Assembly (NCBI GenBank): GCA_030699905.1
Contig: JAUYKQ010000007.1
Span: 1-37,542 of the forward strand
Length of the DNA: 37,542 nt
Reading direction: 5' to 3'
Source: a bacterium
GTDB lineage: Bacteria > Patescibacteriota > Minisyncoccia > Phycocordibacterales > GCA-002787175
Part shown: in pieces, positions 14,084 to 17,148 of the stretch
Numbering within the stretch: position 1 is the first letter of the stretch
Layout of the letters: each line of letters starts with the position of its first letter
The notes under the pieces: model-generated
Seen by the model: only the letters and a program-made list of their open reading frames with translations
What the model was told of the DNA's origin: nothing
Databases searched by the model: none
Position numbers and translations under genes: made by a program

Positions 14084-14111
14084 TTGACCGAAAAAACGCA
14101 TTGTGTATACT
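14084..14111 (+). promoter_or_regulatory. Strong sigma70-type promoter for the aromatic leader
   Basis: TTGACC (14084-14089) and TATACT (14106-14111) are separated by 16 nt. Transcription should begin near 14117-14119, only a few bases before the leader peptide GTG at 14122. Confidence 0.75.
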
Positions 14112-14121
14112 GTGTAGTACC

Positions 14122-14211
14122 GTGCAATCAATAATAAACACATATTTTTTCTTCTTTTTCTTTTTTTGGTCTGCGCTTCCAGCGCCTGTGTTTGCGATTG
14201 TTAAAAACTAA
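14122..14211 (+). CDS. Aromatic leader peptide of the DAHP synthase attenuator
   Basis: A 29-codon open frame from GTG 14122 to TAA 14209-14211. After GTG and seven codons come TAT (14143), seven consecutive Phe codons (14146-14166) and TGG (14167): the peptide contains YFFFFFFFW, then SALPAPVFAIVKN. Runs of regulatory codons of this kind are the hallmark of leader peptides such as those of E. coli pheA, pheST and trp. The frame stays open upstream to GTG 14011, but the promoter lies inside that part, so the short form is chosen. The message would be almost leaderless. Function: its translation reports the charging of tRNA-Phe, and perhaps tRNA-Tyr and tRNA-Trp. The exact start is inferred. 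Confidence 0.75.
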   Translation: MQSIINTYFFFFFFFWSALPAPVFAIVKN

Positions 14212-14278
14212 TCTAACTAACGATCCCAAGAACAGGCTCTGGAAACCGGGACCTGTTTTGTTTTAGTTCTTTTACATT
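14173..14278 (+). promoter_or_regulatory. Transcription attenuator controlling DAHP synthase
   Basis: Four pairing segments are visible. Segment 1 GCGCT (14173-14177) pairs with segment 2 AGCGC (14181-14185). Segment 2 in the form CCAGCGCCTGT (14179-14189) can instead pair with segment 3 ACAGGCTCTGG (14232-14242), 10 of 11 bases. Segment 3 (14231-14242) also forms the terminator with segment 4 (14246-14257), followed by TTTTGTTTTAGTTCTTTT. A ribosome stalled at the last Phe codon would cover segment 1 and leave segment 2 free, giving the antiterminator. This is the classic attenuation arrangement, read from sequence only. Confidence 0.75.
14231..14274 (+). terminator. Attenuator terminator hairpin
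   Basis: AACAGG (14231-14236) pairs with CCTGTT (14252-14257). An inner stem TCTGG/CCGGG caps it around AAA, and a T-rich tract follows. It lies about 90 nt before the DAHP synthase ATG, inside its leader. Confidence 0.8.
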
Positions 14279-14291
14279 CCTGTGAGTAGGT

Positions 14292-14343
14292 TTTTCAGAA
14301 GAATTCTGCTTGGGAGAAACCCTTAGCGGAACACTTCTGAAAA
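14292..14343 (+). promoter_or_regulatory. Second leader hairpin before DAHP synthase start
   Basis: TTTTCAGAAG (14292-14301) pairs perfectly with CTTCTGAAAA (14334-14343). Inside, GGG and CCC around AGAAA can form an inner stem. It ends 18 nt before the ATG and has no T tract, so it is not a terminator; it may affect translation or mRNA stability. No Shine-Dalgarno is seen between it and the ATG. Confidence 0.45.
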
Positions 14344-14361
14344 GTTCAACTCAAATACCTT

Positions 14362-15462
14362 ATGAATACGGAGTTTACTCACAACATAAACATACGCAGC
14401 ATATCAAAACTGCCGTCTCCGGGCCAAATGAAAGCAAACCTCCCGTTGACGGAGAAATCATGGGATACGGTCAGCGAGGGCCGAGAAGTCATCCGCCGCA
14501 TCATTGCGGGCGACGATAAGAGAATGCTGGTAATTGTAGGGCCGTGCTCAATTCACGACACACGGGAAGCGGTCAGGTACGCGGAGAAACTGGCGAAATT
14601 CAAAACTTTCCTTCAAGAAAATAATTCTCAAATGCCTCTTTTCCTGGCTATGAGAGTCAACTGCGATAAACCTCGTAGCCGCGCGCAGACAAATGGAAAG
14701 GCCTCTTGGCAAGGACTCTTCAATGACCCAAAAATGGACGGATCATACGACATGGAAAGAGGATTCAACCTTGCGAGGAATATGATGCTGCAAATCACCT
14801 CGTTAGGAATACCTATCGCGACGGAGATGCTTGAAGCGGCCAACTATCAAGTCATAGACGACTGCATCAGTTATGTATGGCTTGGAGCTCGCGACTCCGG
14901 TTCGCAAGACAAGAAAAAAATTGCGAGCGGAGCTTCAACGCCGGTCGGCTTTAAAAACGGCCTTTCCGGGTCAGTGGACTCTGCGATCCATGCCATTGAA
15001 TTCGCGAGACATCCTCATGTATTCGCGGCTCCAGATGATGACGGCGTCATGTGCAGGTTCGCTACAAATGGCAACTCTCACGGACATTTGATCCATAGGG
15101 GTTTTGAAGACAAGCTGAACTACGATAGCGAAAGCATCAGAACTTCATCACGCAAGCTAAAAGAACTCGGCTTGCCGGAAAGAATTCTTGTGGACATGTC
15201 TCATGGCAACTCGCGAAAAGACCATATCAAGCAAAGGGGCGTGGCCGAATCCGTTCTTGAGCAGATTGAAAAAGGAGAGAGAGCCATCTTGGGCGTAATG
15301 TACGAAAGCTACCTTAAAGACGGGAAGCAGGAAATACCGACAAACCTGCACCGATTGAGGAAGGGAGTTTCCGTCACAGACGCATGCGATGGGTGGGAGC
15401 GAACGGAGGAAACATTGAAAATTCTCGCCCGAAGATTTTCAAAACATCTTTCAAAGAGGTGA
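14362..15462 (+). CDS. aroG: 3-deoxy-7-phosphoheptulonate (DAHP) synthase, class I
   Basis: It catalyses the first step of the shikimate pathway, joining phosphoenolpyruvate and erythrose-4-phosphate. Its 366 aa follow the AroF/G/H type: VGPCSIHD (active-site lysine region upstream of MRVNCDKPRSR), GARDSGSQ...IASGASTPVGFKNGLSGS, the metal-site region MSHGNSRKDH, and the C-terminal SVTDACDGWE. A short insert (RAQTNGKASWQ) is present where E. coli AroG has TTVGWK. No other aro gene is in the window, which is notable for a reduced CPR genome and may point to acquisition together with its leader. It stands alone behind the attenuator and ends at a strong terminator. Feedback specificity cannot be read. 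Confidence 0.95.
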   Translation: MNTEFTHNINIRSISKLPSPGQMKANLPLTEKSWDTVSEGREVIRRIIAGDDKRMLVIVGPCSIHDTREAVRYAEKLAKFKTFLQENNSQMPLFLAMRVNCDKPRSRAQTNGKASWQGLFNDPKMDGSYDMERGFNLARNMMLQITSLGIPIATEMLEAANYQVIDDCISYVWLGARDSGSQDKKKIASGASTPVGFKNGLSGSVDSAIHAIEFARHPHVFAAPDDDGVMCRFATNGNSHGHLIHRGFEDKLNYDSESIRTSSRKLKELGLPERILVDMSHGNSRKDHIKQRGVAESVLEQIEKGERAILGVMYESYLKDGKQEIPTNLHRLRKGVSVTDACDGWERTEETLKILARRFSKHLSKR

Positions 15463-15484: not shown

Positions 15485-15510
15485 ACCGACCATTCGTGGT
15501 CGGTTTTTTT
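15485..15510 (+). terminator. Terminator after DAHP synthase
   Basis: ACCGACCA (15485-15492) and TGGTCGGT (15497-15504) close a stable TTCG tetraloop, followed by a run of T. Confidence 0.9.
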
Positions 15511-15579: not shown

Positions 15580-17148
15580 TTACCGACCGACCACAAGTCC
15601 GCTTAACAGAATCCCGATAGAGCCAAGAAGGTGATTTATGTGCAAGGAACTTGTTTCCGCGCTTTCCTCGCGATAAGGTTCCGTTTCCACGCTTCCTTCA
15701 AACTGCTCGGTATTTACGTTCTCATAATCGGTTTGAGAATCTTGGAATTCAGAAGGAGGCGGATAAAATTCACGATAATCCGGCGCTTCTCCCTCTGGAT
15801 AAACCGGAACGAACTCTTGAGTGGGCGAAATATTTCCATCCCGACTGTCATAAGGACGGGATTCGGAAGGAGGAAGAGAGCGGAAGTCATGGATCTGCCC
15901 GTCTTGAAGCGGTATTACATACTCGCGAATACATTCTTCAATTTTAATGCGAATAGTTTCCGGATCCGGACGCTCTTCGGAAGCTCCGACATCTTCCATA
16001 ACACGTCTTTGACAATCGGCAATGTTTGGCGGCGGCATATTGTCGCCATTTTGCTGTATCTGTCCTCGGTCAGGCCGAAACTTTGTTTCATTTCCTTCTC
16101 TCGGCCCGCCAAATTCCTTAAAACATGCGTCCATTTCTTCGTGAATATCCCTATCCGGCGATTCTCCGTTTTTCATTTTGCGGATAACTTCCGAACCGAC
16201 CTTGCTTTCAAGACAAGCCAGAACTTGCGGCGGAGTATTATCCACCATCTCTCTATTTCCCGGACCGTCAGATTGTCTGAAATGGCTGTCAAAACAAGTT
16301 CTTACCGCTTCTCCTGCTTGAGGCCCCGGCATAAATTGGCCGCTTTCCATTTTGGCAATAACATCCGAACCCAACTTTTCTTTTATGCAGGAAACCACTT
16401 CCGACGGAGCATCACTTAAAGCTTTTCTCATATGCCCCATTCCTTCTTCTACATTTTTCATTTCTTCTTCCGATAAAAGACCGTGCTCTTTAGCGAAAGC
16501 GAAACATGCTTCCCTGTTATCGGGATCATTGCAGAATCTTTCGCATTCTCGTCCGCGACAACCACCCGGGCCACGGCCCCCCGTTTTTCTAAACATTTCA
16601 AGCTCTTCTTTGCTCATTACGCCGTGCTTTTCAAAGAAAGTCACGCATTCTTCTATATTATTTCCGCTCGTGCAATACGCCTCGCATTCGCTTTTATTTC
16701 CGCACCCGCCCGGCATTTCCCCATCTCTCATAAGGCGCATGAACTTCTTCGCTTCAGCGAGCTCTTTGGTCGGCATAAGACCGTTCTCCTCGGCGAAAGA
16801 AAGGCATTCCTCCATATGACTGACATTTTCGCAATACGATTCGCACTCGCGGCGCGTCTTGCATCTCCCGGGACCCTCTTTGAAATCGGCGAATTTCTCG
16901 GCGTGACGCGCCTCTTCTTCGTTCAGCAGGCCGCTTCGGCGAGCGAAATCTATGCACTGTTTCCTGTTCGCTTCGTCTTCGCAGTAAGAATGACAGGCCT
17001 CTTTGCTGCCGCAATTGCCGAGCTCCTTTACCGGAAACGAAATGCCTGAAAGTTCATTATCGCGGGGTCCTTGAGCCGACACCGTGGCTACTCCAGATAT
17101 GAATATCAGGGCGGCGGCAATTATCAAACTTATGTATTTTGAACGCAT
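15580..17148 (-). CDS. Secreted Cys-repeat surface protein
   Basis: A 522-aa exported protein of unknown function. A signal peptide (1-25, ending VSAQ) comes first. Four repeats of about 50 aa follow, each with four cysteines in the pattern C-x4-6-C-x3-(Y/F)C-x8-C-x2-F: C46/52/56/65, C96/102/106/115, C149/155/159/168 and C197/202/206/215. Then come three repeats with paired cysteines (C254/285, C312/342, C379/406), a Pro/Glu/Asp-rich tail (about 415-500) and a hydrophobic C-terminal segment (about 504-520) that could anchor it. Disulfide-rich repeats suggest a stable cell-surface protein, perhaps for host or partner contact. It starts 12 nt after the upstream gene on the same strand. Confidence 0.8.
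   Translation of the reverse strand: MRSKYISLIIAAALIFISGVATVSAQGPRDNELSGISFPVKELGNCGSKEACHSYCEDEANRKQCIDFARRSGLLNEEEARHAEKFADFKEGPGRCKTRRECESYCENVSHMEECLSFAEENGLMPTKELAEAKKFMRLMRDGEMPGGCGNKSECEAYCTSGNNIEECVTFFEKHGVMSKEELEMFRKTGGRGPGGCRGRECERFCNDPDNREACFAFAKEHGLLSEEEMKNVEEGMGHMRKALSDAPSEVVSCIKEKLGSDVIAKMESGQFMPGPQAGEAVRTCFDSHFRQSDGPGNREMVDNTPPQVLACLESKVGSEVIRKMKNGESPDRDIHEEMDACFKEFGGPREGNETKFRPDRGQIQQNGDNMPPPNIADCQRRVMEDVGASEERPDPETIRIKIEECIREYVIPLQDGQIHDFRSLPPSESRPYDSRDGNISPTQEFVPVYPEGEAPDYREFYPPPSEFQDSQTDYENVNTEQFEGSVETEPYREESAETSSLHINHLLGSIGILLSGLVVGR

Follow-up and report, generated by a model that had tools for sequence, protein, structure and literature searches.

In C. glutamicum, the DAHP synthase gene aroF is preceded by the aroR leader, which encodes Phe-Tyr-Phe, and Phe limitation raises expression from this system (Neshat et al., 2014, as reported in PMC11802643 and also in PMC4046766). 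Some attenuator leaders of the same bacterium are described as having no ribosome-binding site (Morbach, 2000, as cited in PMC4046766). The locus analysed here resembles aroR, as portrayed in these accounts, in that a leader peptide with consecutive aromatic residues stands before a DAHP synthase gene; the aromatic run comprises three residues in aroR and up to nine here, and the likeness lies in the described layout. C. glutamicum is an actinobacterium that lives free and can synthesise aromatic amino acids for itself, whereas the DAHP synthase studied here is an orphan, and the aromatic-leader switch recurs through a phylum other than that of C. glutamicum. For the actinobacterial trp, leuS and ilvB attenuators (PMC1262725), too, leader peptides and their terminators were predicted comparatively in a phylum outside Proteobacteria and Firmicutes, and a search of that source by term returned neither DAHP synthase nor aroF. 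The pheL-pheA and trpL-trpE systems of E. coli share with the present locus a leader peptide with control codons, a mutually exclusive antiterminator and terminator, and a U tract. Unlike pheL and trpL, the leaders in this work have the antiterminator arm inside the frame, no conserved protector hairpin, and a predicted translation start near the 5' end. Furthermore, the distance from the stop codon to the terminator is 42–46 nt in pheL and trpL, but 17–30 nt in the 11 loci described below. Full-text searches of a literature collection turned up nothing that links such attenuation to Patescibacteria or the Candidate Phyla Radiation. The principle is already known from aroR of C. glutamicum; what is new is the stripped-down anatomy and the orphan target.

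Architecture of the leader locus

The window, by which we mean the whole stretch of DNA analysed (37,542 nt), carries the leader and the DAHP synthase gene in the arrangement given in Table 1. The promoter and the 29-codon frame with TAT, seven Phe codons and TGG, both proposed in the initial annotation, were re-derived from the sequence, and the proposed terminator with T tract followed by the DAHP synthase gene was confirmed by folding and by the profile matches listed in the table. The GTG start of the leader lies 10 nt past the –10 box and has no Shine-Dalgarno sequence. The antiterminator had been annotated as a pairing of 14179–14189 with 14232–14242; this helix exists and covaries, but it is only the outer part of the full structure. 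The fold of 14169–14264 that contains the antiterminator has an energy of –34.7 kcal/mol (z –5.4; 0 of 200 shuffles as good), and the terminator begins 17 nt downstream of the leader stop codon.

Table 1. Parts of the leader locus and the DAHP synthase transcription unit, with positions in the window.
Feature	Position	Strand	Details and basis
Promoter TTGACC-16-TATACT	14084–14111	+	–35 at 14084–14089, –10 at 14106–14111; read from sequence
Leader peptide frame VQSIINTYFFFFFFFWSALPAPVFAIVKN	14122–14211	+	GTG start, 29 codons, TAA stop at 14209–14211
Control codons TAT-(TTT/TTC)x7-TGG	14143–14169	+	Sequence
Antiterminator 5' arm	14177–14203	+	Inside leader frame, begins ~7 nt past the TGG codon; folding and covariation
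Antiterminator 3' arm	14218–14244	+	Overlaps terminator 5' arm; folding and covariation
Intrinsic terminator hairpin and U tract	14229–14275	+	Hairpin ~14229–14259, U tract to ~14275; –14.4 kcal/mol
Second long hairpin, AA/CA internal loop	14292–14343	+	Between terminator and DAHP synthase gene
DAHP synthase, type I alpha (AroFGH)	14362–15462	+	TIGR00034, Pfam PF00793; ATG at 14362
Likely terminator of DAHP synthase transcript ACCGACCATTCGTGGTCGGTTTTTTT	15485–15510	+	Sequence; single-gene unit

The identity of the enzyme is clear. It scores 351.9 bits against TIGR00034 (cut-off 173.2), E. coli AroF is 39% identical to it, and the nearest solved structures are DAHP synthases. Moreover, the motifs GPCS, MRV-KPR, GAR, GFKN, SH.NS, ES and TD, which we take to be catalytic, are all found in it.

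In the second long hairpin, a small internal loop is bordered by conserved AAUUCUGC / GGAACA, and the sister genome (L002) retains the stems despite differing sequence. This element is confined to the genus; it was rejected as a wider motif, the other pattern matches in 297 genomes looking like chance and the stems being kept only in the two genus members. On the minus strand, positions 15580–17148 encode a 522-aa protein with repeated Cys-rich units (e.g., ECEAYC, ECERFC) and no Pfam match.

Conservation and covariation among relatives

The search covered overlapping sets of genomes from the order (297), the class (384) and the phylum (380). Their sizes of 0.4–1.4 Mb agree with the placement among CPR bacteria given in the initial annotation. 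A DAHP synthase of the window type was found in 27 of them. An equivalent aromatic leader lies directly upstream of the gene at 11 of these 27 loci, the window included, and a recognisable leader is missing at the other 16. The sister genome, which belongs to the same genus and whose enzyme is 61% identical to that of the window, has the leader MKLITNSYRFFFFFTWSQTSWAGICYR and the same arrangement of codon run and paired segments. The other nine leaders are MQQKFYNFFSFFWTPNSRVDF, MKSGNNYSNFFFFGFWGTASRADSCYR, MKNTRFNFFFFSFYGSISRAHLCDC, MNSFRNSYFFSFFLNSFCFRVNC, MTTSISQLFFFYSFFFGTYRLQGQFVVLQ, MTAQKWGFFYFFFNSQKGDFVATR, MTKQASTYFFYFMFINPAKSLESL, MTHSGIFFGAYWYPFSAGKVLLRLS and MTSNMFFNGYWSFAFCARTVL. 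Phe and Tyr occur in all 11 leaders and Trp in seven. At some of the loci without the switch, the aro genes sit behind aroE-like genes. On the DAHP synthase tree the switch is scattered, with 7 label changes, at least 4 of which are forced by well-supported branches. Therefore, simple single descent of the switch along with the gene is not supported, and the pattern calls for repeated gain, loss or transfer.

An orphan locus in G006 (L005) was considered as a twelfth attenuator and left out of the count; its aromatic frame is weaker, the pairing is an alternative one, and its geometry does not fit. It may be an atypical attenuator, in which MKKSNLFGARNLFYKRFF is followed by ACAAGAGACTGGTT, complementary to AACCGGCCTCTTGT of the terminator, with the pairing located after the stop codon.

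The anatomy is shared by all 11 loci. An equivalent promoter is present at each of them, the –10 box ending 6–12 nt before the leader start codon, and a Shine-Dalgarno sequence at none. Because of this short distance and the missing Shine-Dalgarno sequence, the messages are predicted to be leaderless or almost leaderless, with transcription presumably starting between the –10 box and the start codon. The initial annotation had called a nearly leaderless message unusual for attenuation, which is not quite right, given the C. glutamicum leaders reported without a ribosome-binding site (PMC4046766, PMC11802643). The aromatic run ends 39–48 nt from the start codon, and the 5' arm of the antiterminator lies inside the frame, starting 4–17 nt past the last aromatic codon, a gap that is approximately the reach of a stalled ribosome.

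The 3' half of the leader is complementary to the 5' side of the terminator beyond what shuffled sequences give at each locus (p ≤ 0.014, mean z –4.4). From an alignment of seven loci, all from one order, RNAalifold recovered the antiterminator on its own, and in this alignment 95.1% of the cells of its 18 pairs are paired, with two-sided changes at 9 pairs. When the partner is slid by 1–3 columns, pairing falls to 28–49%. The nucleotides TTTGCGATTGTTAAAA are common to the window and G025, but the reading frame across them differs, an indication that selection acts on the RNA and not on the C-terminus of the peptide. Thus, the conserved aromatic runs and compensatory stem changes that the initial annotation proposed to look for in relatives are there, and its reading of the locus as a near-leaderless leader-peptide transcription attenuator of DAHP synthase gains support from both.

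Proposed attenuation mechanism

Scoring of the alternative folds, also proposed earlier, gave mutually exclusive antiterminator and terminator helices. With the ribosome placed at the stop codon, the probability of the terminator is 0.83–0.99 at all 11 loci. With the ribosome placed in the aromatic run, it is ≤0.05 at one or more positions at 9 of the 11 loci, and two loci (L015 and L017) give no clean switch in equilibrium folding. The comparison of the two ribosome positions would therefore correspond to a conserved logic, in which a stall leads to readthrough and completion of the leader leads to termination. We consider it very probable, from the sequence comparisons and folds, that the element is a leaderless ribosome-mediated transcription attenuator sensing the charging of tRNA for Phe, plus Tyr or Trp. 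This high confidence is placed in the attenuator and does not extend to the purpose of the orphan DAHP synthase, for which a hypothesis is offered below.

The untranslated leader behaves differently from those of E. coli. In folding, pheL and trpL form the terminator by default when untranslated (probability 0.96–0.97), whereas the window leader, when untranslated, adopts the antiterminator (with the terminator at a probability of 0.00); in the other ten loci this state varies, with terminator probabilities from 0.00 to 0.99. The 1:2 hairpin of the initial annotation (GCGC-UUCCA-GCGC, 14173–14185) is present in the window, but it is no better than shuffles (z 0.1, and mean z –0.5 over the 11 loci), so that its role as a working part is unsupported. 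With no conserved 1:2 protector and no default terminator in the window, the E. coli-style three-hairpin subtype is not supported. As the hairpin is not conserved, the ribosome itself would occlude the antiterminator; a ribosome running to the stop codon would act as the protector and make a protector hairpin unnecessary.

The folds are equilibrium structures, and for the co-transcriptional kinetics, the start site, the stalling and the direction of control we infer the following course. Transcription would start a few bases 5' of the GTG codon, and the ribosome would start at the 5' end of the message and translate the leader behind RNA polymerase. With an ample supply of charged tRNA-Phe (also Tyr or Trp), the ribosome would reach the stop codon and cover the 5' arm of the antiterminator, the terminator could form 17 nt downstream, and transcription would stop. 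When charged tRNA is scarce, the ribosome would stall in the aromatic run with its front edge ending near 14177, the antiterminator (14177–14203/14218–14244) would form first, the terminator would not, and DAHP synthase would be transcribed.

Small-genome bacteria of this group are usually assumed to regulate few genes and to synthesise almost no amino acids. The present analysis indicates that they use a classical starvation-sensing attenuator, reduced to a near-leaderless version that lacks a protector hairpin.

Metabolic context of the DAHP synthase

The initial annotation had matched a peptide naming all three aromatic amino acids to the enzyme common to all three pathways. This does not hold here, since the window genome yielded no chorismate synthase, shikimate dehydrogenase or prephenate dehydratase, and searches of it with E. 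coli aroA, aroC, aroD, aroE, aroK, pheA, tyrA and trpA-E gave no significant match. Chorismate synthase and shikimate dehydrogenase were found in 0 of the 11 switch-bearing genomes, and a DHQ synthase domain in two of them (the window genome and G025). The same searches for chorismate synthase and shikimate dehydrogenase matched the family in 14 of 14 control genomes, and the eleven switch genomes are rated 93–100% complete; gaps in the assemblies are therefore an unlikely cause of the absent genes. On the other hand, where chorismate synthase, DHQ synthase and shikimate dehydrogenase are all encoded, as in seven genomes, the leader is always missing. It is present in 11 of 20 genomes without chorismate synthase versus 0 of 7 with it (one-sided Fisher 0.013, uncorrected for relatedness). 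Given the absence of both genes from all 11 switch genomes, the attenuator would control an orphan first enzyme, which suggests a metabolic exchange with a host. The puzzle, a switch on the enzyme of the first step where the rest of the pathway is missing and no switch where the pathway is present, makes a trade between epibiont and host a testable question.

DAHP would perhaps be supplied to the host or partner when aromatic amino acids are short. We hypothesize, only tentatively, that an ultra-small, host-dependent symbiont makes DAHP at low Phe/Tyr/Trp, bypasses the feedback-inhibited first step of its partner and so drives the aromatic pathway of the partner, which would place the switch on orphan DAHP synthases and leave it out where the symbiont owns the pathway. 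Three genomes offer clues to a continued use of the product for aromatic amino acids. A prephenate dehydratase was found in G009. The other two cases concern neighbouring genes. In G110 (contig C4, L015), a genome lacking chorismate synthase, the DAHP synthase with its attenuator is flanked by a weak TyrA-like gene on one side and tyrS on the other, and a prephenate dehydratase domain is encoded ~1.5 kb downstream. In G744 (contig C2, L026), the DAHP synthase is followed after ~20 nt, apparently in one transcript, by a gene that is closest to aromatic aminotransferases and scores below the curated cut-off. The ends of the pathway are thus kept and the middle is missing in these genomes, which suggests that a partner may do the middle.

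The enzyme could instead serve another 3-deoxy-sugar or cyclitol route, with the leader only tying it to amino acid status, which is compatible with the attenuator and which we likewise regard as doubtful. The window genome does encode an AroB-like protein (contig C10) that scores 242 bits, under the 3-dehydroquinate synthase cut-off of 305, and whose gene lies in a sugar-type cluster of glycerate kinase-like, short-chain dehydrogenase and nucleotidyltransferase-like genes; the DHQ synthase domain in G025 also fits such a route. However, a cyclase of this kind occurs in only 2 of the 11 genomes, the leaders specifically name aromatic amino acids, and the gene neighbourhoods described above for G110 and G744 also count against such a route. 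The cluster itself (L071, 11441–14659; G000:C10, ~71.4–74.7 kb), in which the kinase gene is glycerate 2-kinase-like, might encode a sugar phosphate cyclase in its AroB-like member.

Alternative explanations of the leader

Two other ways of sensing would suit part of the layout. A nascent Phe-rich peptide might itself stall the ribosome, in the manner of tnaC or ermCL, with no shortage of charged tRNA involved. Homopolymeric aromatic peptides could indeed slow a ribosome, and the arrangement would work with any stall inside the run; however, the leader peptides have no common motif beyond their aromatic residues, and the freely interspersed Tyr and Trp are more readily explained by codon supply than by one particular arrest peptide, so that we hold peptide-dependent arrest to be very unlikely. 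Even less probable is direct sensing of an aromatic amino acid or uncharged tRNA by a ligand riboswitch or T-box, with the short frame being incidental: in such layouts, too, a biosynthetic gene is preceded by a terminator and an antiterminator, but the window element has no Rfam match, nor has any of the 11 loci against 4227 families, no conserved aptamer is visible, and the feature common to the space between promoter and antiterminator is the in-frame aromatic run. The charged-tRNA attenuator remains our preferred reading.

The aromatic density of the leader was also compared with chance. When 600-nt pieces were drawn at random from this genome 4000 times, none contained a short ORF with 9 aromatics per 10 codons, and 0.8% contained one with at least 7 per 10. 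Across the whole genome (815,879 bases), the window leader is the only short frame with 9 of 10 aromatics plus a terminator-like hairpin. Aromatic codons summed over the 11 loci number 75, 20 and 32 in the three frames. It is hardly credible that a chance polypyrimidine tract reads as Phe codons next to an unrelated terminator of the upstream transcript, for while such codons come easily from T-rich tracts, with at least 6 of 10 aromatics in 4.4% of random genome windows and 3 of 27 antisense upstream regions passing the same threshold as the leaders, the arrangement is conserved in the sister genome and in nine further genomes, which already largely refutes this, the leader recurring at 11 of 27 loci in a single frame with Tyr and Trp codons interspersed, a covarying antiterminator, constant geometry and a promoter directly 5' of every frame.

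Searches beyond the phylum

Neither the viral contigs searched nor an initial scan of genome contigs yielded relatives, and the matches of a tblastn search of plasmids were all below 60% identity. An alignment-based scan returned only DAHP synthases of other phyla, which were kept as a comparison set. A leader-like frame is present in 7 of these 79 loci, and five of the seven are of one Burkholderiales-like kind with terminators, whose leaders gave no match in Rfam. In these five loci (L139, L159, L165, L169 and L171), a leader such as MSAKFYFYFFAYLAPLAEGEGL is followed by a terminator, ~160–260 nt upstream of DAHP synthase.
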